Positions 24,159 through 41,457 of a stretch of DNA of 64,000 nt are shown here, one piece after another. Within the stretch, counting starts at the first letter, position 1. Each line of letters begins with the position of its first letter. A model generated the notes under the pieces. That model was not told where the DNA came from and did no database searches. It worked only from the letters and a program-made list of their open reading frames with translations. Source of the stretch: Deltaproteobacteria bacterium (lineage in GTDB: Bacteria; Desulfobacterota; Syntrophobacteria; Syntrophobacterales; Syntrophobacteraceae); contig JAAYVE010000021.1 of assembly GCA_012517315.1 (NCBI GenBank), positions 62,001 to 126,000 on the forward strand, written 5' to 3'. A program made the position numbers and the translations under genes.

Positions 24159-25280
24159 TCAGGGTCGCCCCGTCCAGAACATGGAATCCCGGACCGCTTC
24201 CAGCAGCCGCAAGATGTCCGCCCGGTGGATATCCCCGATGTTTCCCATGCGGAAAGTTTCTTTCGAGGTGACTTTTCCGGGGTAAATGACAAACCCCTTG
24301 GCCTTGAGTGCTTCATAGAAGCGGTGGAAGTGAAACTCCGGGTTTTCGGGGTTGTGAAACGCGGTGATCACGGGAGACTGAAGGGATTTTGGGAGCAGGC
24401 ACCGGAATCCCAGGGCTTCCATGCCCTCCACGAGGATCGTCTGGTTTTCCCGGTAGCGCTCCCAGCGCTTCTGCACTCCCCCCTCCTCTTCCAGTTCCAA
24501 GAGCGCCTGGGCAAAGGCCCGCACCACGTGGGTCGGCGATGTGAAACGCCATTTTCCCGACTGATCTTCCATGGTTTTCCATTGGTCATGGAGATCCAGG
24601 CTCACAGATCTCGCCTGCCCCCCGATCCTTTCCATCTCGTCTCGCCTTGCGATGACGAAACCGAATCCCGGAACTCCCTGAATGCACTTGTTGGCGCTGC
24701 TGATGAGGTAGTCGGCCCCCATTGCGTGTATGTCCATGGGGATTCCACCGAAGCTGCTCATGGCGTCAACGATGTAGATCCTCCCCATGGACTTGACGAG
24801 GCGACCGATGGTTTCTACAGGATTGAGCATTCCCGTGGTGGTTTCACAGTGGACGACGGCCACGTGGGTGACGGAAGTATCCGAGCGGAGTATGGATTCC
24901 AGGAGCGACAGATCGGGGGGGGCCACTTCTCCGCTGTCGAGAACCTGCACGGGGATGCCCAGACGCCCTGCGATCTGGACCATGCGGTTGCCGTATGCTC
25001 CGTTGACCAAAACCAGCAGTGTCCCGTTTTCCGGGATGGCTGTGCCGATGACGGATTCCACGCTGAAGGTGCCGCTCCCCTGCATGAGGGTGCAGGTGTA
25101 CCCTGCGCTCGTTGTCGCCAGTTTCACGAGCCTTTCCCGGATGCCCTGGACGATCCCGTTGTAATCCCTGTCCCAGGTGCACCAGTCCTGCAGCATCGCG
25201 GCCTTGACCGTCGGGGTGGTCGTGAGGGGGCCCGGGGTCAGGAGCAAATAGGGGTTTTCCGGGATTCGGGGGTGTTCCAT
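24159..25280 (-). CDS. phnW: 2-aminoethylphosphonate--pyruvate transaminase
   Basis: A class V PLP aminotransferase of 373 residues. It moves the amino group of 2-aminoethylphosphonate to pyruvate, giving phosphonoacetaldehyde and alanine. The N-terminal LLLTPGPLTTTPTVK and TWDRDYN are PhnW hallmarks. Asp in VDAMSSFGG and Lys198 in SSANKCIQG hold the cofactor. The ATG is chosen because it starts just before the conserved region; AGGAA precedes it. It is the last gene of a minus-strand phosphonate operon, 249 bases after phnX, a gap in which I see no gene. Confidence 0.93.
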   Translation of the reverse strand: MEHPRIPENPYLLLTPGPLTTTPTVKAAMLQDWCTWDRDYNGIVQGIRERLVKLATTSAGYTCTLMQGSGTFSVESVIGTAIPENGTLLVLVNGAYGNRMVQIAGRLGIPVQVLDSGEVAPPDLSLLESILRSDTSVTHVAVVHCETTTGMLNPVETIGRLVKSMGRIYIVDAMSSFGGIPMDIHAMGADYLISSANKCIQGVPGFGFVIARRDEMERIGGQARSVSLDLHDQWKTMEDQSGKWRFTSPTHVVRAFAQALLELEEEGGVQKRWERYRENQTILVEGMEALGFRCLLPKSLQSPVITAFHNPENPEFHFHRFYEALKAKGFVIYPGKVTSKETFRMGNIGDIHRADILRLLEAVRDSMFWTGRP

Positions 25281-25529
25281 GGAGACGATTCCTTTCTTCC
25301 GTGCAGGATGGAAGGACACCAGCCGGGACGGGTGTCCGTGTTCACCTCGCCTTTCCCGGAAAGCCCGCTCCTGCAAGGGGCGGTCTTCAGCAGAAAGGCG
25401 GCGTGCGGTCGTCGTCGCTTCCGCTTCCATGTCAAAGCCGACGGGGCAGCCTGCCGGACAGGGCGGAGCGTGTTCCGATGCCCTTGGACCCGTCGCTCCA
25501 CCTTGTCGCCCCTGCAGAAGAGGGACCCC

Positions 25530-26348
25530 TCAGGCGATCATCCGGTTGATTTCGTCGATGATGGGTGGGCAATCCGCGATGCTCTCCGCCACGAAATGGG
25601 CCCCGGCACCGCGGAACCGTTCCTCGATCCGCGCCAGCCTCGACCGGAGTTCTGCCGGCTCGAGACGCCCGACCTCCTCTTCCGTCAGACCCAGTTCATT
25701 GCCCGTACGGGTGACTCCGATGGTCCACATGCCTGCGTTGAGGCCTTCCTGAATGTCGCTCACCGTGTCACCGATCTTCACCATGGCCTCCAGTGGATAG
25801 ACCTGGAGGCGGATGGCATTGAGGTAGCACATCCAGGGGTAGGGCCTTCCAGCGGGAACATCCGTCGCGCAGACGATGGAATCGGGTCGGTACCCGTGAG
25901 TCGCCGCCTCGGCAGCCAGGACTTCCATCATTGGGCCCGTGTAGCCGGTGCAGGAGCCGATTCTAAGGCCCTGTCCCCGGAAAGCTTCCACAGCGTCCAT
26001 GAGCCCTGGAACAGGGAGGCAATGGCGCCTCAGAGCGCTCACCATGAGTGGCTGCAAACGGTTGTAGAGTTCATCCACGTCTTGATCCCCCGGGGGGGTG
26101 CCGTGGACGGAGCGCCAGCGCTCGGCCACCGGTTCCATGGCACAGATGGCCCGGATGTGGTCCTTCTTCATGAGCCCCATCGGCGCTCTCGCCTCCCCCA
26201 TGGACACCTCCACCCCTGATTGCCTGAAGACCTCCTGAAAGACAGCCACGGGCCCCATGCAGCCGAAATCAACGGCCGTTCCCGCCCAGTCGAGGATGAC
26301 CGCTTGAACGGCCCCCCTGTATGTTGGGCCAGAGCATTTCGGTTTCAT
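25530..26348 (-). CDS. phnX: phosphonoacetaldehyde hydrolase
   Basis: A HAD-superfamily enzyme of 272 residues that splits phosphonoacetaldehyde to acetaldehyde and phosphate. HAD motif I is DWAGTAVDFG near residue 20, with Asp as nucleophile. The PhnX cap carries the region around MGLMKKDHIRA, which includes the Schiff-base lysine. Motif II is in GSCTGYTG and motif IV in KIGDTVSDIQEG. It completes aminoethylphosphonate breakdown with PhnW. The ATG is the one nearest the conserved N-terminus. The upstream permease stop lies about 60 bases away. Confidence 0.93.
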   Translation of the reverse strand: MKPKCSGPTYRGAVQAVILDWAGTAVDFGCMGPVAVFQEVFRQSGVEVSMGEARAPMGLMKKDHIRAICAMEPVAERWRSVHGTPPGDQDVDELYNRLQPLMVSALRRHCLPVPGLMDAVEAFRGQGLRIGSCTGYTGPMMEVLAAEAATHGYRPDSIVCATDVPAGRPYPWMCYLNAIRLQVYPLEAMVKIGDTVSDIQEGLNAGMWTIGVTRTGNELGLTEEEVGRLEPAELRSRLARIEERFRGAGAHFVAESIADCPPIIDEINRMIA

Positions 26349-26410
26349 TGAGATTCTCACTCCTTTGCGGTTAGGTTCCTGTGGAAGCGTCCCCACAGTC
26401 CGATCTCGGT

Positions 26411-28150
26411 TCAGGGAGCCGTCCATGCCTGGGCGCTTTGCTTCAGGCTTCGGGTGAGGAGCGTGTAAACCAGCCGGACCAAGATATTGGTGAAGACGAT
26501 GAGCATGGACATGGCCGCGGCTGGGGCCACATCCCCTGCGTCGTCCATGTTGGCCACGGCGACGGAGGCGAGGGGGATTTCCGCCGAGTAAAGAAAGATG
26601 ACGGCCGATACCGTCGCCATGGAATTGACGAAATAGTACAGGGCGATCTCAAGAATCGCAGGAAGGCACACGGGAACGGTGACCCTAAAGCAGGTCCTGT
26701 AGAAGGGAACTCCCATGGATTCGGATACCATTTCCAATTCCTTTTCCAGTTGTTTGAGCGCGGTGGTGGCCGTCAGGAAGCTCACAGTGTAGAAGTGGAC
26801 GATATTGCAGAGAATCAGGATTCCCATGGTTCCATAGAGGAAATTGAAAGGGTTGGGAATGCCCGCCGGAAAAAAAGGGAGATCCAGGTGAGGGTTGTTG
26901 AAGAAAAAAATGTACGCCAACCCGATCACAAGACCCGGCAGGGCTAGGGGGATGATGGAAAGGAAGTATCCGATTCTTCTCAACAAGGGCGTTTCCTGGA
27001 GTTTCTCGAGGAGGTAGGCGCTCCCGAAAGTCAGGCATGTGCCCAAAAGGGCCGTGTAAAAGGACATGCGCACACTGTTGAAGAAGGCCGCGTAGCCGCC
27101 CCCTCCCGTATCGTGAAAATGGTAGTGTTTCCATGTGAGAGTGAAATCGTAGGGCCAGACGTTCACGAGGGAGACGAAAAAAGCGGTTGTGAGAAAACAC
27201 AGGACGGCGCAAGATATGACGATGCAGTAGGTCAGAAACAGGGCATCCCGCAGGGGGTGGCGCCGGGGAGAATAAGGCACCGATCCGGTGCCGACGACGG
27301 CTTGCTGCCTTCCTTGACAAAAGCGGTCGATGGCGAAGGCGATGACGGTGGGAATGAGCAGGATGACACTCACCGTGGCTCCCATGGAGAAGTTCTGCTG
27401 CCCGATCACCTGCTTATAGATGTCAGTCGCCAGGACGTTGTAATTCCCCCCGACCACCTTGGGAGCCCCGAAATCCGTGAAGCAGAGGACAAAACTCACG
27501 AAAACGGCGCTGATGAGGCCGTACCTGATCCCTGGGAGCGTCACGGAGATGAAACTGCGCCATGGGGAAGCCCCCAGGGATTGCGCCGCCTCGTAGAGGC
27601 GGGCGTCGGTCATGCGCAGGGCGATGGATAAAATGAGAACCACCTGGGGAAAGGTGTAGAAAGCCTCGGCCAGGATGATGCCCACCGGTCCGTACAGGCC
27701 GATGTCCGCTCTCAGCGCCATTCCCGTTACCCTCTCCAGCAGGCCGAAAGCGCCAGTCGTCACCACCCCCTTCTTGCCGAACAGATAGACGAGCACAATT
27801 CCATTGAGGAGGGTCGGGGCGAAAACCGGGACCATGGCGATGCCGAGAAAAAGGGTTTTTCCCGGTATAGCGGTGCGTGTGAGGGCATAAGCGAAAAGAA
27901 ACCCCAGGGAGACGGAGACCATCGTCGTGATGAGGGAGACGGTGAGGCTGTTGGTGAGTGAACCGGCGAGGGCGGGAGTCCGGAAGTAGCGTGAAAAATT
28001 GGCCAGACCCGTAAACTCCCCCTGGGCGTTGGAGAGACTTCTGACAAGCAACTCCAGGACGGGAAAGACGACGGCCACGGTCATCCAGAGACAGACGAGA
28101 ACGATGAGTCCGCCCTTGATGAGCCGATCCAAGTCCATCGCTTGAGACAT
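26411..28150 (-). CDS. 2-aminoethylphosphonate ABC transporter permease (fused two-domain type)
   Basis: A membrane protein of 579 residues with about twelve helices and two binding-protein-dependent permease modules. The first EAA-type loop is around LYEAAQSLGASPWRSF and the second around LEMVSESMGVPFYRTCF. This double-length permease is typical of the alternative 2-aminoethylphosphonate importer; the single-module PhnU/PhnV proteins are the other form. The start is uncertain: ATG at 28150 has AAAGGGG very close, and ATG at 28138 is the alternative. It lies between the ATPase gene and phnX. Confidence 0.87.
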   Translation of the reverse strand: MSQAMDLDRLIKGGLIVLVCLWMTVAVVFPVLELLVRSLSNAQGEFTGLANFSRYFRTPALAGSLTNSLTVSLITTMVSVSLGFLFAYALTRTAIPGKTLFLGIAMVPVFAPTLLNGIVLVYLFGKKGVVTTGAFGLLERVTGMALRADIGLYGPVGIILAEAFYTFPQVVLILSIALRMTDARLYEAAQSLGASPWRSFISVTLPGIRYGLISAVFVSFVLCFTDFGAPKVVGGNYNVLATDIYKQVIGQQNFSMGATVSVILLIPTVIAFAIDRFCQGRQQAVVGTGSVPYSPRRHPLRDALFLTYCIVISCAVLCFLTTAFFVSLVNVWPYDFTLTWKHYHFHDTGGGGYAAFFNSVRMSFYTALLGTCLTFGSAYLLEKLQETPLLRRIGYFLSIIPLALPGLVIGLAYIFFFNNPHLDLPFFPAGIPNPFNFLYGTMGILILCNIVHFYTVSFLTATTALKQLEKELEMVSESMGVPFYRTCFRVTVPVCLPAILEIALYYFVNSMATVSAVIFLYSAEIPLASVAVANMDDAGDVAPAAAMSMLIVFTNILVRLVYTLLTRSLKQSAQAWTAP

Positions 28151-28225
28151 TCCCCTTTGTGTCAGTGAGGAGGCGAATCGGGTTTCTCGCATGTGGCAAT
28201 CGGATCTCTCTCGGATGGGCGTGGG

Positions 28226-29425
28226 TCAAGCCGCATACACGTGAATCCTGTCGGACGGGAGTTCCACATCCAGTTGACCGTTCTCCGATATGCCGAATCG
28301 TCTGATCTTTTCCGTTGGGATATCCGCTTGAAGAAGGCATTGTTCCGCCGCCCCCAGGGGCAGCGATAGAGTCGCCCTGTAAAGGGGACCCCGGAATTCA
28401 AGGCTCACGACCTTGGTGGAGAGGGAGTTCTGGGAATGGGAGATGCGGTTCACGACGATGTCCTCGGGCCGAATGGCAATGGTCGCATGGGATCCCTGCG
28501 TCACGTGATCGCCTCTGGACACGTGCAGGCGGATTTCTCCCAGGCGATACACCCTGTGGGTCTCCTTCAGGGCTCTCCCCATGAAGTTCATGGAGCCGAC
28601 GAAGGAGGCCACAAAAGGCGTTGCGGGTTTTTCATAGATTTCCATGGGCGTTCCTATCTGAACCACTTCCCCCCCTTCCATCACCAGGATGCGGTCAGCC
28701 ATGGTGAGCGCTTCCTCCTGGTCGTGGGTGACCATGAGAGTGGTGATGTTGAGTCGGCGCTGGAGTTGCTTCACTTCCCCTCTCAGCATGAGGCGTACCT
28801 GCGCATCCAGGGCGGACAGGGGCTCGTCCAGAAGCAGGAGGTGGGGAGAGAGGGCCATGGCCCGTGCGAGGGCGACTCGCTGCTGCTGGCCGCCCGATAG
28901 CTGCGCCGGGAATTTGGAACCGAAACCGCTCAGCCCCATCAGGCGAAGGAGGCTCTCCACGCGGTCCTGGATGGATGCGCGTCTTCTGCTCCGGATCCTG
29001 AGGCCGTAGGCGATGTTCTGAGCCGCCGTCAGGTTCGGGAAGAGGGCGTACGACTGGAAAACGATGCCCACGTTGCGCTTGGAAACGGGAACGTTGGAGA
29101 AATCCTCCCCCCTCAAGTGGACACTCCCCGCATCCTGCTTCTCGAGACCGGCGATGATGCGCAACAGGGTTGTTTTGCCGCATCCGCTCGGCCCCAGAAC
29201 ACAGAGGAATTCACCCTTGTCCGCCTGGAAAGAGACATCCCGCAGGGCGTTGGAGCGCCCGAATCGTTTGGTGATGCCTCTTGCCTGGAGATAGGGTTCC
29301 TCTGGGGCAACGGGGAAATCCTCAATGCCCCTCTTCCCATTCCCGTGGGGCAGGCGGGGGGGTGAAACCTTGTCACCGGATGGGGAATTCGTTTCCATGG
29401 TCGGGTGTTCAGGGTATTGACCCAT
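28226..29425 (-). CDS. 2-aminoethylphosphonate ABC transporter ATP-binding protein
   Basis: An ATPase of 399 residues of the CysA/PotA group: Walker A GPSGCGKTT, signature LSGGQQQR, Walker B LLLLDEPLSAL, switch VTHDQEEA, then a C-terminal TOBE-like domain from about residue 290. The first ATG directly abuts the stop of the substrate-binding gene; a second at 29398 would shorten the protein by nine residues. The first 40 residues are a low-similarity extension. It energises phosphonate uptake. Confidence 0.88.
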   Translation of the reverse strand: MGQYPEHPTMETNSPSGDKVSPPRLPHGNGKRGIEDFPVAPEEPYLQARGITKRFGRSNALRDVSFQADKGEFLCVLGPSGCGKTTLLRIIAGLEKQDAGSVHLRGEDFSNVPVSKRNVGIVFQSYALFPNLTAAQNIAYGLRIRSRRRASIQDRVESLLRLMGLSGFGSKFPAQLSGGQQQRVALARAMALSPHLLLLDEPLSALDAQVRLMLRGEVKQLQRRLNITTLMVTHDQEEALTMADRILVMEGGEVVQIGTPMEIYEKPATPFVASFVGSMNFMGRALKETHRVYRLGEIRLHVSRGDHVTQGSHATIAIRPEDIVVNRISHSQNSLSTKVVSLEFRGPLYRATLSLPLGAAEQCLLQADIPTEKIRRFGISENGQLDVELPSDRIHVYAA

Positions 29426-30463
29426 CTATTTCTTGGGCTCGCTCTTGGCTCCGTATCGCCGGGTCCATTCGTCGAGGATCGCCGAACGGTTCTTGGCGGC
29501 CCAGTGGAGGTCGTTCTTGATGAGCTGCTTCATGGGTTCCTTCGGGAAGCCCTCGGGCACGGGATCCACCGTGGGGGCGGCGACAATGGCGAAGCTCTTG
29601 GCGTATTCCTTCATGGCAGGCTCACTGATGGCCCAGTCGAGAAAGACCTTCGCTTCAGGCTTGATCGCCGTCTTTTTCACCAGGGCATTGGCCTCCAGGT
29701 CCCAGCCCGAACCCTCTTTGGGGAAAACGGTGAGGATCGGTTCCCCTTTCTGCTTCTGAATGATACCCCGGTACCCGAAGGAGATGCCTATGGGGAATTC
29801 CCCCGCTCCGGCCATCTTGCATGGCTTGGAGCCGGAATGGGTGTAGATGGCGATGTTATCGTGGAGTCTGTCCAGATATTCCCAGCCCGCTTTTTCCCCC
29901 ATCAGTTGTAAGACGGCGGAAATGGTGAGGTAGCCGGTTCCGGAGGAGGCCGGGTTGGGCATGGTGATATGCCCCTTGTACTCCGGTTTGATGAGGTCCG
30001 CATAGGACTGGGGAGCGGGGAGCTTGTTCTTTTCCATTTCCATGGTGTTGATGCAGAAGCCCGTCTCCCACGCGTCGATTCCCACCCACCTGGGGGGATG
30101 GGCCGTGTCTTTGAACTGTGGAAGGATCCGTTCCACTCCCTTCGGGGCGTAGGGTTCCAGCATCCCTTCCTGCTCGAGAATGAGCAGACTTGTGGCGGCG
30201 GTGCCCCAGACGACGTCGGCCTGCGGGTTGGCCTTTTCCGCCAGCAGCCTCGCCGTCACGATTCCTGTGGAGTCCCGGACGATCTTCACTTGGATTTCGG
30301 GGTGCTGCTGCTTGAACGATTCGAGATAACGGGGAATCTGATCATCTTCGAGGGCGGTGTAGACCAGAACCTCCGCCGCCTCGGCGAGAGGGTGAAAAAC
30401 GGATGCAAACAGAACGACGGCGGCATAGAGGGAATGAAGGATAAACCGGCTTGGTTTGCTCAT
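29426..30463 (-). CDS. 2-aminoethylphosphonate ABC transporter substrate-binding protein
   Basis: A periplasmic receptor of 345 residues from the iron/phosphonate (SBP_1-like) group. The signal peptide runs to about residue 29 (HPLAEA). The mature N-terminus [12 protein letters not shown] and the [11 protein letters not shown] and GYRGIIQ segments match the PhnS2-type receptors that accompany the double-module permease. It is the first gene of the phosphonate operon. Its upstream region carries four tandem 11-base GTCAC-like repeats, suggesting phosphate control. Confidence 0.9.
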
Positions 30464-30611: not shown

Positions 30612-31664
30612 TTAGATGCGATCCTCCAGGACGTGGAACGAAATGGAGGATCGGGTGACCATGCTTCTTCCCGTGTAGAGGAAAACGCTCACCCACAGGA
30701 GCTGAATGAAGAGGATCATGGACGGTGTCCAGATGGAGAGGATTCCCGAGACGATGTCCGGAACAATGGCCGGGGGGTTCGGAAGGAGGGGGGGGAGTCC
30801 CAGAGAGTAGAAGACCGCCCCAAGGCTCATCCATTGATAGATGGAAATGTGCCCACCCCCTCGGTGGTCGGCCCTCAGAATCTCTGAAAAGGTGCGCCAA
30901 AGCTGGGTGCTCACCACCACGAAAAGAAGGGCGGAAGTGAAGAGGCCGTCGAGGAAGAGCACGAGACCTACAAGCCCTACTGCAACAAAGAGGATGCATG
31001 TGGCCCCCTGCACCGGGATGACCCTCTGGCCGTCAAGGCTGCTTTCGTAGGCAATTTTCTTCGTTTTTCCCGAAAAGACAAAGGAAAAGTCCGAAAAGAG
31101 CCTTTGGACGATGGAAGGACACTCCGTGAGGGGTTTTCCGTAACAGCACCCGAAACTGATGCACGCCAGGCGACCGGTTCCCTCCCCGAAGGCGTAGCCG
31201 ATGCTGAGGGCCGCCAGAGACGGAATGACGGGTATTTCCAGGTCGAGCCAGTGGCGGGTCATGGCGTTGGCCGACACAATGGTCCAGGGAGCGATGACCA
31301 TCCCGAGAAATGAAGCTCCACCCACTGTGAACGTGTAGCGTCTGTTTTCCACGTAGGAGGCGATCCACCTGGATGCCGGAGCGCAGACGGCGAGAAGGAC
31401 CAGGGTGAGGAGCAGGGTTGCCTTCAGGGGCAGGCCCAGGGATCCCATGAGCACAAAAACGAGGATGACCCCCACCGAGTAGGCGTTGGCATTGAAAAAA
31501 CCGTAGTAGGTGAGGTTCAGGCCGGTCCAGTGACCGTGGGAGTCTTTCCGGAGGGGAAAGGAAGCGATGAATTGCCATTGCTCGCGGGGCAGGTTCCTGA
31601 ACCCCCAGTTGAAAAGGAGAGAGAAAAGACCGGCCAGGGCCAGCACGAAAAAGAGGTTCGCCAC
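30612..31664 (-). CDS. Lgt-like integral membrane protein
   Basis: A membrane protein of 350 residues with about eight helices. The segment GRLACISFGCCYGKP near the middle resembles the Arg/Gly signature of prolipoprotein diacylglyceryl transferase (Lgt), which moves diacylglyceryl from phosphatidylglycerol to lipoproteins, but the GCCYG form is that of Lgt-family paralogues of unknown role. The N-terminal half is extended compared with Lgt. A GTG start follows AGAGGAG six bases upstream. It lies 78 bases after the decarboxylase gene, so it belongs to the lipid-gene operon beginning at 35280. Confidence 0.65.
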   Translation of the reverse strand: MANLFFVLALAGLFSLLFNWGFRNLPREQWQFIASFPLRKDSHGHWTGLNLTYYGFFNANAYSVGVILVFVLMGSLGLPLKATLLLTLVLLAVCAPASRWIASYVENRRYTFTVGGASFLGMVIAPWTIVSANAMTRHWLDLEIPVIPSLAALSIGYAFGEGTGRLACISFGCCYGKPLTECPSIVQRLFSDFSFVFSGKTKKIAYESSLDGQRVIPVQGATCILFVAVGLVGLVLFLDGLFTSALLFVVVSTQLWRTFSEILRADHRGGGHISIYQWMSLGAVFYSLGLPPLLPNPPAIVPDIVSGILSIWTPSMILFIQLLWVSVFLYTGRSMVTRSSISFHVLEDRI

Positions 31665-31742
31665 GTTACACTCCTCTGGGGAAAGCCGTCATGAAGGTTG
31701 GCTCCACTGACGGCGGGATAGATCTCCTGTTGCCTCGGCTCG

Positions 31743-32798
31743 TCACCGCCACCAGGGGCAGGTGCCGCTCTCGTCGCCCTCCGGGTTCGTTCCTGCAGGA
31801 CGGGCGATAGGGGAGCGCACCTTCAGTTCCGTTTCCACCAGGGTCTTCCCGAATCCCCTGGAGAATCGGCTTTGGACTCCCGGCAAGCCTGTATTGCGCA
31901 GGAGATCCGGAGCGAACTCCACACGCTCCTCCTGAAACAGAAGCACATCGGTGCTGCTTCCAGGTCGGTAAAGACTCTTGGGGACTCCTTTCCGGAGAAA
32001 GTCACCTTTCCTGACAGGTCTTGGGGCTTCATAGCGTTCCTCGCTGTAACACTGGACGATATCCCCGATCATGAGGGCGACGATTTCCACCATGGCCACG
32101 AGCCCCACCTGGGAACCTCCCGCCACGTCCGTGTCCATGAGGGTCACCACCCGTTTGTTTTTGGAATAGGGAGTAGCCAGTGCCACCACCGCACCAGGGT
32201 TGCACGAGTGATAGGGGCCGTCGATTTCGTAGAAGTCCACGACGCAACCCGCCACGGGAGTGTGGTTGTAATGGTACTTCTCCGGCGTCAGGCGAAAGAC
32301 GGCGAACGCCCCCCCCTGAAAGACCCGTGCCCAATCCTCTTTTCGGGGACCCAGGAGTTCGTCGGCGTCGAAGAACTTCCCCTTGAGGAAGAGGGGAGAA
32401 GACTCCGCAAGGGATCCCACGATCACCCGGGAGTCCGCGGGGGACACCACGATGCGCGGGTCGCCGGGCATGGGGCGGCATTCCCAGTAGCGGATCTTTC
32501 GCTCGAAGAACGCCCTTGCGGTGCTGAAAACTGCGCAGTCCTCAACGCATTCGGACAGGTCGACCCCGGACTCCCGGAGGAAACCGGAAGCGCCGAAAAC
32601 CCTCGAACTCAGGAGTGAGTCGAAGTTGATAAACCCGAGAAGGGAGGAGATGCGTGCGCTCGTGAGAGCCCGGAAAAGCTGGGGAGCGGACTCCCGCACA
32701 TGTGAATAGATGAGGTTGACAATCGTGTCGCCGTATAGTTTTTCATCGATCACTCTACCCGTGTGCCGCTCGACGTACTGGTGCCTCCGGTTCCCCAT
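31743..32798 (-). CDS. psd: phosphatidylserine decarboxylase family protein
   Basis: A pyruvoyl-type decarboxylase of 351 residues that should convert phosphatidylserine (or a related lipid) to the ethanolamine form. Self-cleavage should occur at Gly280-Ser281 (GSST, compare the family's LGST). HYNHTPVAG matches the HYHR-type catalytic region and SPADSRV the PADG block. The N-terminal region to about residue 110 is a separate conserved-looking segment. ATG 32798 is chosen because family-like sequence starts there. It overlaps the upstream 841-aa gene by 44 bases. A second decarboxylase of another type lies at 40744. Confidence 0.88.
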   Translation of the reverse strand: MGNRRHQYVERHTGRVIDEKLYGDTIVNLIYSHVRESAPQLFRALTSARISSLLGFINFDSLLSSRVFGASGFLRESGVDLSECVEDCAVFSTARAFFERKIRYWECRPMPGDPRIVVSPADSRVIVGSLAESSPLFLKGKFFDADELLGPRKEDWARVFQGGAFAVFRLTPEKYHYNHTPVAGCVVDFYEIDGPYHSCNPGAVVALATPYSKNKRVVTLMDTDVAGGSQVGLVAMVEIVALMIGDIVQCYSEERYEAPRPVRKGDFLRKGVPKSLYRPGSSTDVLLFQEERVEFAPDLLRNTGLPGVQSRFSRGFGKTLVETELKVRSPIARPAGTNPEGDESGTCPWWR

Positions 32799-35280
32799 GT
32801 TTCCTATTTTCCTCCAGGGTCTTGGCTGCCTGTATCTTGTCGTTTTCAATACTCAGGAGCAGGAGGTGAATCGTGGTGAGGAGTTCCCGTCGGGAAGCGC
32901 CCTCCGCCAGGATCGCCTCTTTGGCGCCTCCGAGAAACCGCAAGGCGCTTTGTCCTTCAGGCAGGATGGAACGCAGGGACTCCCGAAAACGGTTCCCGTC
33001 CCCACCTCTCCCCGAATCCATGGCGCGCAGGTCCTCTTCCAAGAAAGCCAGGGCTTCCGCCAGGTGCTTGGCCCGCAGGTGTCGCCGGTAGTACTCCTCC
33101 GCAGCCATGTTGAACTCCCGTGCCCCCGCCCTCAAGGGAGAGGAAGCCCCAAGCGTGTTCAGGATGCCCCCCGTGAGTCTCCCCGCCGCGGAGAATTCGT
33201 CCGGGGACTCCATGCGCAGGCGGAGGTCGTTGACCGTTTCTCCCATTCCCAGGAGATCGAGGAGGTCCCTGCCGTCTTCCTGGAGGATCTCGAGAAGGGC
33301 CCTGCGGTATTCAAGGTTGTACACTCGGTAGTGATTGGGATAGCGTCGACTTTGCCGGACCTTCCGGCATCGTTCCAGAATGCGAAATAGAAAGGCGTTC
33401 CCCGTGTTCTTGTGAACATAGAAAGTGGGAATGCCGATGGCGGTCCCGAAAAAAATCTGCCTGCGTTCGCTCTCGATCGAGGGACTGTCGGGAATGTGGC
33501 GGTGGGCCACTTTTCCCGTTGCGATGTATTTCATGGCGAGGGCGGTGACGAGGACTTGAAGATCCACCGCTTTCCCCATATCTCCCTCGAGGCTTTCAAA
33601 AAGGCTGTAATAGCGCCCTTCGAAACCGCTGAACCCCCTCACGTGACACTCACGAAGGCGGTAAAGGAGGTAGACGGGCATGCGGGTGTCAAAGGCGCCC
33701 AGTTCGAAAAGATCCCGCTTGAGTCTTTCCCCGTTTCCCATCGCCCCGTTGAGGGCAGGACTGCTTTCCGTGCTCATGAGGCAGACGAAATAGTCGATGA
33801 GCCTGAAATCCTGGATGAAATCGCCCTTCAATGAGAATAGGGTCTTGATGACCTCGTCCAGCCACCCCGGACCGAAGGGGGTGATGGGACGGCCAAAAAC
33901 CTTCAGTCGCGCCTTCTTCTTCCAGCGGCGCCAGATCATGCGCAGATGGGTGTAATCCAGTTCGTGGGGAAGGTATCCAAGGGCTCTTTCCGGGTGGAAA
34001 TCACAAAAGTCCATGCGGTAAGGGGCGGCGCTGTAGGTTCCCACAAACAGGGGAAGGAAATGCTCGACGATCTTGATGGCGAGGTCCCCCACGAATTTCT
34101 CGTCTGCCCTGGCGTGGGGATGGGAGGGATCCTTGAACGCTTCGGTCAGCTTCAGGCTTCCGACGCTCACGTGAATCCCGTTATTGGCGAGACTGACGTT
34201 GGACAGATTGGGGAGCACCACGAGGTTGTTGGCGATGATGCCGGCTTCCCGGAGTTTCACCACGGCGTTCAATTGGCTCCTGCTCAGCACCTTGTGACAA
34301 AGAACCATGTAGCGGTGTTTTTCCTCGCCCCGGTCCCAACCGGAGAGACATGGACTCATGAAGAGTTCCCGGTAGAAGGCATCGGAGACGCACTCGTTGA
34401 GCTCCTTTTGCCGAATGGGAGGGTGAGGGGCGAAGTAGATGATCGCCTCCTGGCCCATGGATCGAAGCCCGAAGGCTTCGTTGGCGTACATCGTGAGGAG
34501 TTGCGTCAGGAGGTACCGCTTGGAGGTTTCCCGGGCGACGGCCCTCCCGGAGCCGTTCCGGACATTGAGAGGGACCACGTGGAAAGAGGTGGTCTCCGGC
34601 GATGTGTTGTCGTTCAAAAAATGATGCAGCAGGCTCATACCGGCTTCCCGGATGGTCCCGTCCACCGTTTCACGGGATCCGAGGAGATGGGCCAGGGAAA
34701 GCTTGATGAGATAGCTGACGGGAATGCGCAACCATCGCTCCCCTCCCTGGTGGAAAAGGAACCGATCCACGTCGCTTCGGGTTCCCCCATGGGGATCCGA
34801 TTTGTCCGCCAGCAGGTCCGTCTCGAGGGTGGAGGCTGCCAGGGGATTGAGAAACCTCAGGGGAAAACGCACCCAGCTGTTTTCCCAAATGACATGGGAC
34901 TGATCCTGAAGATACTTCTCCAGATCGGTCATGACCGTTCTGGGAGTCTCCCCCGCCTGGATCCGTCGCAGGATGTTGCGGTAATAATTGGATTGCTCGA
35001 TGACGATGGGAAGGTCCACGTCCCCTTTCCTCCCCTTCACGACAGCCTGGAGTTCACTTTCGGACCCGGCGGTGACATCACCGAAGGAAAAGGGAAGGGT
35101 CGCGGTGACACGAAAAGAGTTGGTGAAATCCACCCCTGCGCTTTGGAAGAATCGGGTGATAGAGTGGGATCGGTCCAGCCCCCCTTTGCTGTGGAAGGAC
35201 TGAAACCCTGCCTGAACCAGCTTTCTCGACGGCTCCACGGGCACCTCGTGAAAAGGTTTGTCCTCGCTGCACCGTTCCAT
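32755..35280 (-). CDS. large protein of unknown function (841 aa)
   Basis: I do not recognise this family. It is a largely soluble, Arg/Leu-rich protein without a signal peptide or clear transmembrane helix. Noticeable segments are GYLPHELDYTHLRMIWRRW and GIIANNLVVLPNLSN in the middle, a tyrosine-rich region (RYPNHYRVYNLEYRR), and a helical C-terminal 150 residues. I found no Walker, HX4D acyltransferase or Rossmann motif. No ribosome site precedes the ATG; GTG codons 12-14 codons later are alternatives. It overlaps the decarboxylase gene by 44 bases, so the two proteins probably act together. Five GTG repeats lie just upstream. Confidence 0.7.
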   Translation of the reverse strand: MERCSEDKPFHEVPVEPSRKLVQAGFQSFHSKGGLDRSHSITRFFQSAGVDFTNSFRVTATLPFSFGDVTAGSESELQAVVKGRKGDVDLPIVIEQSNYYRNILRRIQAGETPRTVMTDLEKYLQDQSHVIWENSWVRFPLRFLNPLAASTLETDLLADKSDPHGGTRSDVDRFLFHQGGERWLRIPVSYLIKLSLAHLLGSRETVDGTIREAGMSLLHHFLNDNTSPETTSFHVVPLNVRNGSGRAVARETSKRYLLTQLLTMYANEAFGLRSMGQEAIIYFAPHPPIRQKELNECVSDAFYRELFMSPCLSGWDRGEEKHRYMVLCHKVLSRSQLNAVVKLREAGIIANNLVVLPNLSNVSLANNGIHVSVGSLKLTEAFKDPSHPHARADEKFVGDLAIKIVEHFLPLFVGTYSAAPYRMDFCDFHPERALGYLPHELDYTHLRMIWRRWKKKARLKVFGRPITPFGPGWLDEVIKTLFSLKGDFIQDFRLIDYFVCLMSTESSPALNGAMGNGERLKRDLFELGAFDTRMPVYLLYRLRECHVRGFSGFEGRYYSLFESLEGDMGKAVDLQVLVTALAMKYIATGKVAHRHIPDSPSIESERRQIFFGTAIGIPTFYVHKNTGNAFLFRILERCRKVRQSRRYPNHYRVYNLEYRRALLEILQEDGRDLLDLLGMGETVNDLRLRMESPDEFSAAGRLTGGILNTLGASSPLRAGAREFNMAAEEYYRRHLRAKHLAEALAFLEEDLRAMDSGRGGDGNRFRESLRSILPEGQSALRFLGGAKEAILAEGASRRELLTTIHLLLLSIENDKIQAAKTLEENRKHGEPEAPVRRAAHG

Positions 35281-35322
35281 CTCGGAACGTCGTGCACACT
35301 ACCGGAGGAAATCGTCGGGATT

Positions 35323-35371
35323 GTGAACTCCGTGTGACCGATTGTGTCTTTTCCGTGACTTTCCTGTGAAT
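35323..35371 (-). promoter_or_regulatory. Pho-box-like array upstream of the 841-aa protein operon
   Basis: On the plus strand GTG trinucleotides lie at 35323, 35334, 35344, 35355 and 35366, four of them GTGA. The spacings are 11, 10, 11 and 11 bases. On the minus strand this reads as repeated TCAC. It ends 43 bases before the start codon, as a PhoB-type activator site would. The rest of the 316-base gap 35281-35596 shows nothing else. Confidence 0.55.
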
Positions 35372-35596: not shown

Positions 35597-35968
35597 TCAG
35601 ATGAGAACGGTCAACAGCGAAAGAGCGGAACCCTCGAATGCCTTTTCGAGGACGAGGCCCAGGATGGCCTTCCCAATGACTCCTCCTGCCCTGGACGCCG
35701 CGACCTGAAGGGCCTGCTCGTTAGTGGAGACCCTTGAGAGGTCGATATAGCCCTTCTGATTCAAAGTCTGCAGCAATCGCGCCGAATCCACGGCCTTGGC
35801 GTTGTAGTTGACCACGACGCTCCCCGTCAGGGTGTTGACCGCTGTGGAGTCCACCCCTTCGATGGCTTCCAGGATCTTTTGAACGCTTTCCGCTGCGGAG
35901 TTGTTCCCTTTGATGATCGGTGTCTTCACACGCAGCCTTCCCGGGATGTCATGGATGTACAGACCCAT
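35597..35968 (-). CDS. small HMA-like domain protein
   Basis: A protein of 123 residues. Residues 1-75 resemble the cysteine-free HMA-like domain at the N-termini of the two ATPases at 217 and 5112 (IHDIPGRLRVK here), and residues about 90-123 form a hydrophobic, membrane-active stretch. This suggests a membrane-associated partner of a P-type pump, or a lipid or metal sensor. GGGAGGAAG precedes the ATG. It overlaps the upstream zinc-ribbon gene by 20 bases, forming a two-gene operon. Confidence 0.7.
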   Translation of the reverse strand: MGLYIHDIPGRLRVKTPIIKGNNSAAESVQKILEAIEGVDSTAVNTLTGSVVVNYNAKAVDSARLLQTLNQKGYIDLSRVSTNEQALQVAASRAGGVIGKAILGLVLEKAFEGSALSLLTVLI

Positions 35969-36263
35969 TGCAGTCTTCCTCCCTTGAGACCTTCATAAAA
36001 GTTCGGCATATGGGATAGTTGGAACAGCGGAACCGCAACGCCCTCTTTTCCCGCTTGTAAGCATGCATCGGCTTTCCGCATTTGGGACACACGGGTTTGT
36101 CGGACAGGACGTGCCTGCTGGAGTGACGGGAAAACTGCCTCTTGCACACCAGGCAAATGAACCTCTGTTTTCCATTCCTGGTCTTTCCGTACTTGTAATA
36201 AGCCTCGGAGTCGCAAATGGGGCAGCGGACTCCATGAAGAGACCCGCTCGAAGAGGTTTCCAT
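35949..36263 (-). CDS. double zinc-ribbon protein (InsA-like N-terminus)
   Basis: A protein of 104 residues with two zinc ribbons. The first, CPICDSEAYYKYGKTRNGKQ then CLVC, looks like the zinc-binding start of IS1-type InsA transposition proteins. The second, CPKCGKPM then CSNYPIC, resembles topoisomerase-type zinc ribbons. No InsB-like transposase partner is present, so it is probably a free-standing DNA- or RNA-binding protein rather than an insertion element. It is the first gene of the operon with the HMA-like protein. AGGAAAGCC precedes the ATG. Confidence 0.7.
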   Translation of the reverse strand: METSSSGSLHGVRCPICDSEAYYKYGKTRNGKQRFICLVCKRQFSRHSSRHVLSDKPVCPKCGKPMHAYKREKRALRFRCSNYPICRTFMKVSREEDCNGSVHP

Positions 36264-36410: not shown

Positions 36411-36430
36411 CGCAACTTTAGGAGAGATTT

Positions 36431-36468
36431 GTTACAGATTGGTGAACATCATGTGAAGATTGTGAAAC
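36431..36468 (-). promoter_or_regulatory. Pho-box-like array upstream of the zinc-ribbon/HMA-like operon
   Basis: On the plus strand GTTAC at 36431 and GTGAA at 36442, 36453 and 36462 are spaced 11, 11 and 9 bases apart. On the minus strand they read TTCAC repeats. The nearest gene they could serve is the minus-strand zinc-ribbon gene, whose start lies 168 bases away. Confidence 0.5.
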
Positions 36469-36679: not shown

Positions 36680-37981
36680 TTAGAGGAGTCTTGCACCCAT
36701 CTCCGCCACGCGGGAACGCTCCCCTTTCCTGAGGGTGATGTGCCCCGCCAGATCCTCGCCCTTGAGTTTTTCCACCAGGTAGGACAAACCGTTGCTGCTT
36801 GCGTCCAGGTAGGGGTGGTCGATCTGTTCGGGATCTCCCGTGAAGACGATCTTGGAGCCTTCGCCCACCCGGGTGATGAGGGTCTTGATCATGTGAGGCG
36901 AAAGGTTTTGCGCCTCATCGCAGATGATGAACTGCCTGGGGATGCTCCTCCCCCGAATGTAGGTCAGGGCTTCCATTTCCAGCACTCCGCGCCGCCTGAG
37001 ATCTTCCATGATATCAAACGGATCCTGGCAGTCGCGCAGGAGATACTCCAAGTTGTCGTAAATCGGTTGCATCCACGGCCGCAACTTCTCTTCCTTGGAT
37101 CCGGGCAGATAGCCCAGATCATCCCCCATGGGGATGACGGGGCGCGTCACCAAAAGCCGGGTGTACGTGTTTTGCTCCACCACCTTTTCCAGCCCCACGG
37201 CGAGGGCGAGGAGCGTCTTGCCCGTGCCTGCCCGGCCCACCAGCGTGACCACCTTGATGCTGTCATCCAGGAGGAGTTCGAAGGCGAACCGCTGCTCCTT
37301 GTTGAGGGCACGGATTCCCCAGTTGATGGAGTCCCCGTGGGCGAGGGACCAGAGCGTGTTCTGGGAGTACCTGCAGAGGGCGGACTGGGAGGCGGTGTTG
37401 CGGTTTCTGAGAACGAAAAATTGGTGGGGCAGAGCGTTACAGTGGCCGTTGACGCAAAGCTTGCCTTCCTGGAAAAATGTCTCCATTTCTACCGTAGAAA
37501 CCAAGATTTCACCGGCTCCGGTGTAAAGCTGATCGTAGTCCACCTTGTCGTTGATGAAGTCTTCCGCGGGGATGCCAAGGACGTCCGCTTTCAAGCGGAG
37601 GTTGAGATCCTTGGTCACCAGGATAACGGGACTGTGGTTTTCGCGCTTCAAATTGTAAGCGACGGTGAGGATGCGGTTGTCGTGTTTCTTGGAATCCAGC
37701 CCCAAGCCGAATTCGCCGGGGTCCGAATGGTTGAGTTCGATCCAAAGCTGCCCCCCGTTGGGCAGCGGCACGCCTTCCGACAATCGCCCGCTCAGTCGCA
37801 GACCGTCCAGTTTCTGGGATACCACCCGCGCGTTTCGTCCAATTTCGTCTTGACGCTTCTTCTGGTTATCCACCTCCTCGATGACGGCGAATGGAATCAC
37901 CACGTTGTTTTCCTGGAACGCAAACAGGGCCTCGGGGTTGTGCAGCAACACGTTGGTATCCAAAACATAGGTCTTGGGCAT
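36680..37981 (-). CDS. phoH: PhoH-family protein with N-terminal PIN domain
   Basis: A protein of 433 residues of the PhoH2 type. A PIN ribonuclease-like domain covers about 1-140, with acidic residues in YVLDTNVLLH near the start and VTKDLNLRLKA. A PhoH ATPase follows, with Walker A GRAGTGKT near 249-256 and Walker B IICDEAQN. Such proteins are RNA helicase/RNase fusions; PhoH was first seen as phosphate-starvation inducible. It is a single-gene unit between the zinc-ribbon operon and the glycosyltransferase gene. I see no GTGA array directly before it. Confidence 0.92.
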   Translation of the reverse strand: MPKTYVLDTNVLLHNPEALFAFQENNVVIPFAVIEEVDNQKKRQDEIGRNARVVSQKLDGLRLSGRLSEGVPLPNGGQLWIELNHSDPGEFGLGLDSKKHDNRILTVAYNLKRENHSPVILVTKDLNLRLKADVLGIPAEDFINDKVDYDQLYTGAGEILVSTVEMETFFQEGKLCVNGHCNALPHQFFVLRNRNTASQSALCRYSQNTLWSLAHGDSINWGIRALNKEQRFAFELLLDDSIKVVTLVGRAGTGKTLLALAVGLEKVVEQNTYTRLLVTRPVIPMGDDLGYLPGSKEEKLRPWMQPIYDNLEYLLRDCQDPFDIMEDLRRRGVLEMEALTYIRGRSIPRQFIICDEAQNLSPHMIKTLITRVGEGSKIVFTGDPEQIDHPYLDASSNGLSYLVEKLKGEDLAGHITLRKGERSRVAEMGARLL

Positions 37982-38168: not shown

Positions 38169-40649
38169 TCAAACCGCCCGATCCATTTGGATCGGCAGCG
38201 ACAGGGAATTGTCCCGGTACATTTTCCACGTCCGATCAAAGGCTTCCTCAAAGGAGCGGTCTTCCATGTATTTGCGGGCGGCACAGCCCATTTCTCTCAG
38301 TCGCTCGGGAGATTCCAGGAGGCGCTCGATGGCGGCGAGGAGGCTTTCGGCGTCATCCCCCTTTACGACCACGCCGGTTTTGCCGGGAATCATGTTCTCC
38401 CTTGGACCACCGCAGTTGCTCACAACGACGGGAATCCCCGACGCCTGGGCCTCCAGGACAACGTTTCCGAACGTGTCGGTGGTGCTGGGAAAAACGAAAA
38501 GATCACAGGAGGCGTAGATCTTGGCGAGTTCCTCACCCTCTACATATCCCGTGAAATGGGAAGGGGTCCCCCGCATCATTTCCTGAAACTCCTCGTGGTA
38601 GGGACCGTCCCCCACGAAGACGAACCCTACCTCTGGATGGGTCCGGAGGAGCCGGCGGCAAACGTTTCCAAGAAGCTGGAGGTTCTTTTCCTTGGAAATC
38701 CGCCCAACGTAGAGGATCTTCGGTCCTTTCGGAAGCCCCGTGCGATCAGCGAGAAAGGGGAGGTCCCGCTTGGAGGGATGAAAACGCTCCACGTCGATGC
38801 CCCTGGGGAAGATGCGGATTTTTTCCGGCTTGATCCCTCTGTCAAGGAGTTCCTGACCGGTGCTCCTGGAGGGAACGTAGACGAAGTCCATTTGTTCATA
38901 GTACCAGAGTGTGTATTTCCACACGAGGTCCTGGATGCCGGAATCCCCGGTGAGGTGCCACGCGTACTGGGGCAGTGCCGTGTGATAAGTACCCGTGATG
39001 GGGAGTTTCAGGATCCTTGCGATGGCGAGGGCCGCCAGACCGATGGGGCCGGGGGTCGCGGAATGGATATGGGTGAAGTCCATTTGAAAGCAGTAGTCCA
39101 GCATTTCAAGGAAGGGAGGATAGAAAAGCTTTTGCTCCGGGTATTCCGGGAGTTCATAGACACCGATGGGTTTGAAGTTGCGGATTCCCTCCCTCTTTTC
39201 ACGCATTTCGGCATCACAGGTGATCACTGTGAGGTTCTTACCGGTTTTCAATGCCATGCGCACCTGGTGCTGCAGGGTGAGCGCCACCCCGTTGACTTCG
39301 TAAAACGTGTCCGTGAAGTGCCCGACGCGGACCGGCTTGCGCCCTGACTCGCCTTGGGCCTCGCCGTCACTGAAGCGTTTCACAAGAGCATCGCAGAAAC
39401 ATCGGTCCTTGGTGAACACGGAGAAGGAGACGAAGTAGGGGGCGAGAAGAGAATAGAGGGAGCCCGCGGAGCCGATGGTCTGGAAAATGTTGAAAAGCTG
39501 GCCGCCCGACAGGTGGTCGAGGAGATGGTTCCCGAAATGCAGCAGGGCCTTGTTGGATACCTTGTTGACGAAATGGAACCACGTTTCTTCCACATGGCCG
39601 GGCTTGACTTTGCCATTGCCGTTCCCGGCGCCGTTTCCGTTCCTGAATGCGTCAACGAACGCGGGATCGTCTGAAATGAGTCGCCGGGTTTCGTACCGGA
39701 GCAGATCCTGGAGCCGTTTTCCCTTGGCAGGCTCAAAGCGCCGGGTCCTCCTGGAATTCCAGAACCAGTAGAACCTTTTCAAGAGCCCGTTGTGTTCCTG
39801 GGAATCGGGATCGAGGAAACGGTCGATGAACTGGAGGAAGGGGTCCTTGTTCACGTGGCGGCCTATTTGGAAACGGTTCTTGTAGAACTGGTACGCGATG
39901 CCGTAGAGGTTGTGGGCGAGGGTCCGGGGAGTGGAACCCTCTCCCCTCACCTTTCCGCGCCCCTGCCGGATCCCCAGGAAAAAGCCTTGGATGTCCATGG
40001 CATCCGGGACCTCGGTGAAGTGCCTGGCGATGTTGAGTGCGCTATGGTCGTCTGAGCCGCCCGTGAGATGTTTTATCCAGGGTTCGTCATGGAGCGGGTT
40101 CATGCGGTGCTTTTCCGCCAAACGTTCCATGTCCTCCGGTCGCAGGCGACCCAAGACTTCCTCCAGGCAGCGGTTCTGCGAAGGGTCCCGTGAACCGTTG
40201 ATCTCAAAATTCTTGAACAGGAGGAGAAACTGTTCGAAATGGTCGACGGTGAGCCGATCGTTGATGGAAAACAGGGGGTGTGCCAGGACATGGTGGATTC
40301 CCTTTTCATGGAGATAGGCCGCCAATTCAAAAATGTCTCGGCGCAGGTCCTGGATCTCTGAATGGATCGCTTCGTCGATGTCGTAAACGAGGACGTGTAC
40401 CTTGCAACCCCCTTCGGGAAAATAGGTTGTGACCTCCTCACTGATGAATACATTGGGCAGATGGGCGATTTCGAGGCATCCTTCAATGGAATTGTGATCC
40501 GTGATGGTGACATGGGTCATGCCTTTTTCCAGTGCGATGCGGTGGAGAACGGAGGGCTCGGTGAAGCTCTCCGGACATCCGAACTTCTGCAGGACCCACT
40601 GAGAGGGTCTCCGGGAGAACTTGGAATGGACATGAAGGTCGATTCGCAT
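38169..40649 (-). CDS. PHP-domain / GT4 glycosyltransferase fusion
   Basis: A two-enzyme fusion of 826 residues. Residues 1-240 form a PHP phosphoesterase domain with metal-binding DLHVHSKFS at the start, TDHNS and GSDDH. A linker follows, with a short NGNGAGNGNGK stretch. From about 450 there is a GT-B glycosyltransferase of family GT4, with TFYEVNGVALT, PRGIDVERFHPS and the E-x7-E region ending DTFGNVVLEAQASG. The GT half resembles lipid glycosyltransferases of phosphate-starved bacteria, which is inference. ATG 40649 is chosen because PHP domains begin there. It follows the small Psd gene by 94 bases. Confidence 0.88.
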   Translation of the reverse strand: MRIDLHVHSKFSRRPSQWVLQKFGCPESFTEPSVLHRIALEKGMTHVTITDHNSIEGCLEIAHLPNVFISEEVTTYFPEGGCKVHVLVYDIDEAIHSEIQDLRRDIFELAAYLHEKGIHHVLAHPLFSINDRLTVDHFEQFLLLFKNFEINGSRDPSQNRCLEEVLGRLRPEDMERLAEKHRMNPLHDEPWIKHLTGGSDDHSALNIARHFTEVPDAMDIQGFFLGIRQGRGKVRGEGSTPRTLAHNLYGIAYQFYKNRFQIGRHVNKDPFLQFIDRFLDPDSQEHNGLLKRFYWFWNSRRTRRFEPAKGKRLQDLLRYETRRLISDDPAFVDAFRNGNGAGNGNGKVKPGHVEETWFHFVNKVSNKALLHFGNHLLDHLSGGQLFNIFQTIGSAGSLYSLLAPYFVSFSVFTKDRCFCDALVKRFSDGEAQGESGRKPVRVGHFTDTFYEVNGVALTLQHQVRMALKTGKNLTVITCDAEMREKREGIRNFKPIGVYELPEYPEQKLFYPPFLEMLDYCFQMDFTHIHSATPGPIGLAALAIARILKLPITGTYHTALPQYAWHLTGDSGIQDLVWKYTLWYYEQMDFVYVPSRSTGQELLDRGIKPEKIRIFPRGIDVERFHPSKRDLPFLADRTGLPKGPKILYVGRISKEKNLQLLGNVCRRLLRTHPEVGFVFVGDGPYHEEFQEMMRGTPSHFTGYVEGEELAKIYASCDLFVFPSTTDTFGNVVLEAQASGIPVVVSNCGGPRENMIPGKTGVVVKGDDAESLLAAIERLLESPERLREMGCAARKYMEDRSFEEAFDRTWKMYRDNSLSLPIQMDRAV

Positions 40650-40743
40650 GATGGAGAATCCTTTCAACATTGAGCTTGCACCAACTGAAACTGACGGTAT
40701 GCCTCCCGCAGCCGCCGCATTTCCATGGCTGTCCGGCAATCCT

Positions 40744-41457
40744 TCACTCGACGAGGATCGTCTCCCCCGCGCGAACTCTCTGGCCGGGACGGACCCGCAT
40801 CACCATTTCCTCGTCCCAGGGAAAAATCAGGTCCACCTGCGACCCGATGCGGATCATCCCGAAGACCGTTCCTTTCTCGACGCGATCTCCAGGCCGGAAG
40901 TAGCTTTCGATCCCGCGCACATTGAGCCCCGCAATCTGGACGACGTAGAAGGGAAGACGTTTCCCCGCGAAGATCCCGTCGATCTTGGTCACCGTTCTTT
41001 CGTTTTGAACGATGTGCATGGAGTTCTTGTAATGGGGCAACCGGCCCAGGATGGTGCGAAGATGCATGGGCCCCATGTGGACGTTTTCGCCCGCGGGCGG
41101 ATGATGACGAATGAACCGGATCTCGCCTGTCACGGGTGAACGGTTGTAGTGCACGTCGAAAGGGCTCATGAAGACGCCGATGACCGCCTTTCTGAGAGAC
41201 ACGTCTTCCTTGAGAATGTCGCGCACGGAAATGGGAACACCCTGTTTCACGGACACCACCTCTTCGTGGGGCTCAACCACTTTTGCATAGACCACCGTCC
41301 CGTCGGCAGGGCTCACGATGTTCTCACCCGAAGGAGGGGTGCGTGGAGGGTTGCGAAAAAACCAGATATATCGCCAGAAGAGGAAGGCGAACACGACGAG
41401 GAAAACGAGAGCGAAGAAGACGCTCAAGGGTGTGATCGTCAATCGGTATAATTCCAT
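40744..41457 (-). CDS. psd: phosphatidylserine decarboxylase, short (PSD-B) type
   Basis: A pyruvoyl decarboxylase proenzyme of 237 residues. Two adjacent hydrophobic stretches near residues 8-34 anchor it in the membrane. SPADGTVV (49-56), FDVHYNRSPVTG (100-111) and the cleavage site Gly205-Ser206 (RIGSQVD) mark the family. It is much shorter than the other decarboxylase at 31743. Its ATG overlaps the end of the methyltransferase gene by 19 bases, and the glycosyltransferase gene follows. Archaetidylserine-type activity cannot be excluded. Confidence 0.9.
   Translation of the reverse strand: MELYRLTITPLSVFFALVFLVVFAFLFWRYIWFFRNPPRTPPSGENIVSPADGTVVYAKVVEPHEEVVSVKQGVPISVRDILKEDVSLRKAVIGVFMSPFDVHYNRSPVTGEIRFIRHHPPAGENVHMGPMHLRTILGRLPHYKNSMHIVQNERTVTKIDGIFAGKRLPFYVVQIAGLNVRGIESYFRPGDRVEKGTVFGMIRIGSQVDLIFPWDEEMVMRVRPGQRVRAGETILVE

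Follow-up and report, generated by a model that had tools for sequence, protein, structure and literature searches.

The stretch analysed here, 64,000 nucleotides of a Deltaproteobacteria bacterium of the Syntrophobacteraceae (contig JAAYVE010000021.1; hereafter the window), raises the question of what a large protein without recognised relatives does in the company of two putative lipid enzymes. The three genes lie on the minus strand: a gene for an 841-aa protein (32755..35280), a gene for a pyruvoyl decarboxylase resembling phosphatidylserine decarboxylase (Psd; 31743..32798), and a gene for a protein resembling the prolipoprotein diacylglyceryl transferase Lgt (30612..31664). We propose that this triad is probably a PhoB-type phosphate-starvation operon whose products make a phosphorus-free, diacylglycerol-based aminolipid that replaces phosphate-containing membrane lipids. 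Its regulation and the fold of the large protein are well supported, whereas we infer the lipid product.

A conserved three-gene unit

Counted from its ATG, the psd gene overlaps the gene of the large protein by 44 bp (translation may instead begin further upstream, at a TTG at 32849), and the lgt-like gene starts 78 bp past the end of psd. Pfam recognises the Psd-like protein through PF02666 (6e-35) and the Lgt-like one through PF01790 (4e-7). These coordinates agree with an earlier reading of the same DNA from its letters alone (hereafter the sequence-only reading), which had also regarded the three proteins as a functional set. A gene-neighbourhood survey upholds that pairing. Homologues of the large protein turned up at 36 loci in a scan of species genomes, Spirochaetes and Kiritimatiellae included, and searches among relatives and within the phylum added more; the locus counts and residue-conservation figures given below refer to 54 triad loci or homologues of the large protein. 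Co-occurrence was counted in one set of 395 phylum genomes. The large protein is encoded at full or near-full length in 43 of these genomes, all 43 of which also harbor the special lgt-like gene, as opposed to only one of the 352 genomes without the large protein (Fisher 6e-57). In this single extra genome (G170, locus L121) the lgt-like and psd genes are present and the contig ends just upstream, before the gene of the large protein. The special Lgt-like proteins are separated from canonical Lgt by a wide score gap (approximately 378 bits for the weakest intact match, no more than 41 for canonical Lgt).

Gene order and strand are kept in nearly all loci with enough contig, in Desulfobacterota-type genomes as well as in Spirochaetes and Kiritimatiellae; the triad thus also occurs in Spirochaetota and Kiritimatiellota. 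Desulfocarbo indianensis and Geomesophilobacter sediminis are examples of carriers in culture. In three genomes (G251, G384, G436) the genes are apart with other genes in between. The lgt-like gene is present only as fragments or interrupted in genomes G375 and G390; in the latter an insertion with a transposase-like open reading frame (ORF) breaks the region. The protein distances of the three families covary (Mantel r 0.65-0.77; null maximum 0.23). The triad is a conserved three-gene unit. A search of one genome from the window's family yielded nothing of the large protein beyond a 32-residue remnant with a stop (G015:C1:3048051-3048146), which suggests recent loss.

The large protein as a predicted carboxylate-amine ligase

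Neither the single 841-aa sequence nor a family of 33 members matched any entry in Pfam, NCBIfam or the PDB sequences (phmmer and profile searches), so that the sequence-only reading was right to find no sequence family. Structure prediction nevertheless assigns a fold. The AlphaFold2 model (mean predicted local distance difference test score 83, predicted template modelling score 0.88) aligns in VIA-align with E. coli gamma-GCS (1v4g) at Z 17.1 with a root-mean-square deviation of 4.1 over 411 residues, followed by YbdK (Z 15.8) and PafA (Z 14.6; PafA/Dop 14-15). All top 19 structural matches are GCS, YbdK, GshF, PafA or Dop proteins, glutamine synthetase itself is a weaker match (Z 6-8, Foldseek and VIA-align), and matches outside this fold stay below Z 5.

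Motifs on successive strands define the superfamily of carboxylate-amine/ammonia ligases with this fold: GhExE or Ex[EH] on the first core strand, acidic residues on the second and third, [HD]x[NH] on the fourth, an arginine on the fifth, and Ex[RK]x2D on the sixth (PMC2588565). These motifs occur in order along the 841-aa protein, contrary to the sequence-only reading, which had seen no catalytic motif. The strand-1 motif reads GSESE at residues 72-76, with G72, E74 and E76 invariant in 54 of 54 homologues. Likewise invariant are E133, whose strand follows the first helices, and E229 on a strand further along; without superposition, both are candidates for the acids of strands 2 and 3. The motif GIHVS (368-372) contains an invariant H370, with serine or threonine at the motif's second position across the family; SAAP (417-420) resembles SAASP of YbdK and GASP of GshA; and in FEGR (553-556) the residues E554-G-R556 are invariant together with R543, the trailing aspartate of the strand-6 motif being absent. 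Overall, E74, E76, E133, H370, R422, R543, E554 and R556 are invariant in all 54 homologues.

The fold, together with these invariant residues of catalytic type, indicates that the protein represents a new family of ATP-dependent carboxylate-amine ligases of glutamine-synthetase fold, an assignment that is well supported as far as the fold is concerned. The predicted ligase shares with GshA, YbdK/GCS2 and PafA/Dop the strand-1 GxExE and the order of the motifs, and it has probable counterparts of their invariant histidine, strand-5 arginine and ExR. Unlike GshA, YbdK and PafA, it is 841 residues long, contains large insertions and a C-terminal portion made of helices, has no significant sequence or profile similarity to these proteins, carries HxS instead of HxN/H, and is genetically tied to lipid enzymes. 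Since two of its motifs depart from the textbook form (HxS and the missing aspartate), we regard it as a member by fold and main motif and not as part of GCS1/GCS2; none of the 33 family members matches a GCS-related Pfam family (GCS1/GCS2, PF04262/PF04107). Ligases of the PF04107 family are uncommon among relatives (2 of 60), and none was found in the window's own genome. A PlsB-like acyltransferase was also considered for the large protein and found no support.

The Psd-like protein and the predicted diacylglyceryl transferase

The Psd-like protein aligns with E. coli Psd (hhalign, P 98.9%) and shares with phosphatidylserine decarboxylases of the PRK00723 type the domain and the catalytic Asp/His/Ser residues (D122, H176, H179 and S282, invariant in 54 of 54). 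In contrast to these enzymes, it misses all NCBIfam equivalog cut-offs, with scores far below them, and it is the third Psd of a genome with two further copies, so that ordinary phosphatidylethanolamine synthesis is covered elsewhere. A second psd gene with a canonical domain lies within the window at 40744-41457 (minus strand), 5.5 kb upstream of the triad, and adjoins a methyltransferase gene.

The Lgt-like protein scores 30 bits against PF01790 (gathering score 24.9), and its model matches E. coli Lgt (5azb) at Z 13.2 with the next match at 5.1; an hhalign comparison with the single E. coli Lgt sequence was uninformative. In E. coli Lgt, residues R143, R239, E243 and R246 are essential and serve to hold and activate phosphatidylglycerol (PMC4728403). 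These align with R165, R257, E261 and R264 of the Lgt-like protein, which are kept in 52-53 of 53 sequences, and the equivalent of Y26 is also invariant or nearly so. The protein differs from Lgt by additional N- and C-terminal helices, by cysteines (C168 and C173) at the acceptor-side positions N146 and E151, and by the lack of the HGGL motif. It is a predicted diacylglyceryl transferase that we do not classify as Lgt proper, and a separate canonical Lgt is encoded in the same genome. The distribution of charges in its loops is a further difference. In E. coli Lgt the cytoplasmic loops, which face away from the active site, are rich in positive charges, whereas in 15 Lgt-like sequences 13-22 lysines and arginines are found in loops on the active-site side and only 1-3 on the other. 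By the positive-inside rule, this bias suggests an inverted topology with the active site facing the cytoplasm, with the reservation that the active site itself holds several arginines.

Predicted phosphate regulation

Upstream of the triad, at 35322..35370 on the minus strand (approximately 50-90 bp before the ligase ATG), lies an array of TTCACA-like hexamers with a period of 10-11 bp (TTCACA-GTCACG-GACACA-GTCACA-TTCACA). Generic tandem-repeat and repeat finders missed it. The array is recognised as a Pho-box array (z 6.7) by a small matrix trained only on pstS promoters from the loci of other genomes (23 hexamers, seven loci; the window was not part of the training set). It is the second best array in the 64 kb; the best one (score 24.5) lies 1.1 kb further upstream, at 36430..36468 on the minus strand, ahead of two small ORFs.

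The same matrix finds a Pho-box signal in 30 of 54 triad upstream regions at a shuffle p of at most 0.05 (2.7 expected), and triad upstream regions outscore 484 other upstream regions (rank test P 6e-16), with the proviso that the loci in these statistics are related by descent. The signal is confined to a period of 11 (mean 8.35, compared with at most 0.07 at periods 6-10 and 12-20) and to the sense strand (P 8e-7). Strong arrays are concentrated ahead of the ligase gene: 15 of 76 are located within 300 bp upstream of it, a region that makes up 0.9% of the sequence. In addition, pst, phoU or phoBR genes are found within approximately 10 kb of the triad in 10 of 54 loci, including the Kiritimatiellae genome L172, where about 0.3 loci are expected by chance (one pst operon per 4-Mb genome; binomial 2e-12, relatedness ignored). 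Control of the triad by a PhoB-type phosphate-starvation response is, as a prediction from these patterns, well supported.

A proposed phosphorus-free aminolipid

The sequence-only reading had noted a repeat array ahead of the genes, which we identify as the Pho-box array, and had suggested a pathway for an ethanolamine- or diacylglyceryl-type lipid group, perhaps in phosphate-poor conditions. This suggestion stands in part: the unit is conserved, and the diacylglyceryl part and the phosphate-poor setting fit the conserved donor site of the Lgt-like protein, the Pho boxes and the pst/pho neighbours. In the proposed pathway, the ligase would couple a carboxylate with an amine at the expense of ATP, forming an amide head group. 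The Lgt-like protein, its active site turned to the cytoplasm, would take the diacylglyceryl group of phosphatidylglycerol and transfer it to this head group, releasing glycerol phosphate, and the Psd-like protein would remove a carboxyl group and so set the final charge of the lipid. The proposal leaves the order of the three steps free.

A head group made of glutamate and cysteine would account for all three steps, as a thiol is the natural acceptor of Lgt and the decarboxylation would turn a lipid with a net negative charge into a zwitterion like the betaine lipid diacylglyceryl-trimethylhomoserine (DGTS). The product is then perhaps S-diacylglyceryl gamma-glutamyl-cysteamine, a DGTS-like zwitterion (32:0 form C42H80N2O7S, monoisotopic mass 756.569), a specific structure that we consider doubtful. 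Described more broadly, the triad may define a new class of phosphorus-free lipids in anaerobic Desulfobacterota, Spirochaetota and Kiritimatiellota, in which an inverted enzyme of Lgt type uses phosphatidylglycerol to make a diacylglyceryl aminolipid with a thioether (or ether) bond, a ligase of glutamine-synthetase fold builds the head group and a Psd trims it, all under PhoB control; we give this formulation somewhat less than even chances.

Anoxic waters are rich in phosphorus-free lipids, for which few biosynthetic routes are known. The proposed system resembles the pathways for ornithine lipids (Ols), the betaine lipid DGTS (BtaAB) and glycolipids (PlcP/Agt) in its Pho control and in the replacement of phospholipids, but we know of no Lgt-type transfer, Psd or glutamine-synthetase-fold ligase in any of these. 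Among sulfate reducers, D. alaskensis G20 relies on Agt and OlsF (PMC5193443). A literature search found no paper that combines three of the key terms of the triad system. If the proposal is correct, it would add a phosphorus-free lipid route built from enzymes not previously linked to lipid replacement, in lineages that are common in anoxic waters. It would also widen the chemistry of Lgt from protein lipidation to membrane-lipid synthesis, give the carboxylate-amine ligases a new family, and provide a gene marker for environmental data that can be matched to unidentified lipids.

Several observations weigh against the proposed operon and its product. In approximately half of the loci a clear Pho box is missing immediately ahead of the ligase gene, and the stretches retrieved around pstS-like genes in the window's own genome yielded no strong array. 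The strand-4 motif of the ligase is HxS and not HxN/H, and hhalign comparisons with the single E. coli GshA and YbdK sequences are not significant (P<1%); because of the latter, the assignment of the ligase rests on the fold of the model and the order of the motifs. In the Lgt-like protein N146, E151 and HGGL are missing, so that its acceptor, or even its chemistry, could differ. Finally, the genome of Desulforhopalus singaporensis (L027) has the ligase without both partners, the one true exception to the co-occurrence.

Alternative explanations

Closest to the proposed pathway is a variant of it, in the same phosphorus-free class and sharing in the probability of the general proposal, with another order of steps and another head group. 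Here a thio- or oxy-ether analogue of phosphatidylethanolamine (diacylglyceryl-cysteamine or -ethanolamine) would be made first, by the Lgt-like and Psd-like proteins, and its amine would then be capped by the ligase. In favour of it, the usual substrates of Psd enzymes are serine lipids in the membrane, and a cytoplasmic location is possible for all three active sites. Against it, most ligases of this fold work on small soluble molecules. We regard this variant as rather unlikely.

A modification of ordinary phospholipids is less likely again. The Psd would supply phosphatidylethanolamine or an analogue, the ligase would aminoacylate its amine, the Lgt-like protein would only bind or move phosphatidylglycerol, and Pho control would reflect an adjustment of membrane charge. 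The conserved catalytic residues of Psd are compatible with such a scheme, as is the ability of ligases of this fold to accept amines as large as those of proteins (PafA, PMC2588565). On the other hand, the genome already has two other copies of Psd, the donor residues of Lgt are all kept, and a phosphorus-containing product leaves the Pho boxes unexplained.

We give still less credit to a starvation-induced lipidation system, in which the ligase would conjugate peptides or proteins in the manner of a Pup ligase and the Lgt-like protein would provide the lipid anchor. PafA and Dop are among the best fold matches and canonical Lgt lipidates a peptide-bound cysteine, yet no gene for a small conserved protein recurs beside the triad, the Lgt-like protein no longer has the acceptor-side motif, its active site appears to face the cytoplasm, and Psd would be unnecessary. 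That the ligase makes a soluble, glutathione-like thiol against arsenate or metals entering via Pst, with the lipid enzymes secondary, is highly improbable: genes of arsenate-reductase type near the triad in approximately 6 loci and the solitary ligase of L027 fit it, but most loci have no arsenic gene and the ligase and lgt-like genes co-occur almost perfectly.

Neighbouring genes

Directly downstream of the triad, on the same strand (24159..30463), lies an operon for uptake and breakdown of 2-aminoethylphosphonate (PhnS2, PhnT2, PhnU2, PhnX, PhnW; NCBIfam equivalogs over cut-off). With a complete ATP-binding cassette transporter as well as PhnW and PhnX, it is a phosphorus-scavenging neighbour that is not kept with the triad elsewhere, apart from phnX, which lies near it in L130. 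In L123 the triad has an alkaline phosphatase gene nearby. Between the second Pho-box array and the triad, also on the minus strand, are genes for a small zinc-ribbon protein (35949..36263), the first ORF after that array, and for a small protein resembling heavy-metal-associated domains (35597..35968). Both are possible further members of the Pho regulon; a homologue of the latter sits downstream of the triad in L126.

Recurring neighbours, none of them present in most loci, include pst/pho genes, response regulators, a PHP-domain/GT4 glycosyltransferase, arsenate-reductase-like proteins and GGDEF/EAL proteins. The glycosyltransferase gene is near the triad in approximately 6 of 54 loci (window 38169-40739, minus strand; L114, L153, L176 and others), in L114 between psd and lgt, and its product is perhaps a glycolipid partner of the triad. 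Small proteins of arsenate-reductase type are encoded near the triad in L151 (9103-9537), L143, L133, L137, L158 and L179; in L151 the gene lies between psd and lgt. The same position is taken in two related genomes by a small zinc-finger gene of DksA/TraR appearance (L117 4161-4562, L118 2091-2492). A PIN-PhoH gene is close to the triad in the window (36680-37981, minus strand) and in L133, L151, L153, L154 and L022; in L151 it stands directly upstream of the triad on the same strand and is itself preceded by a strong Pho-box array.

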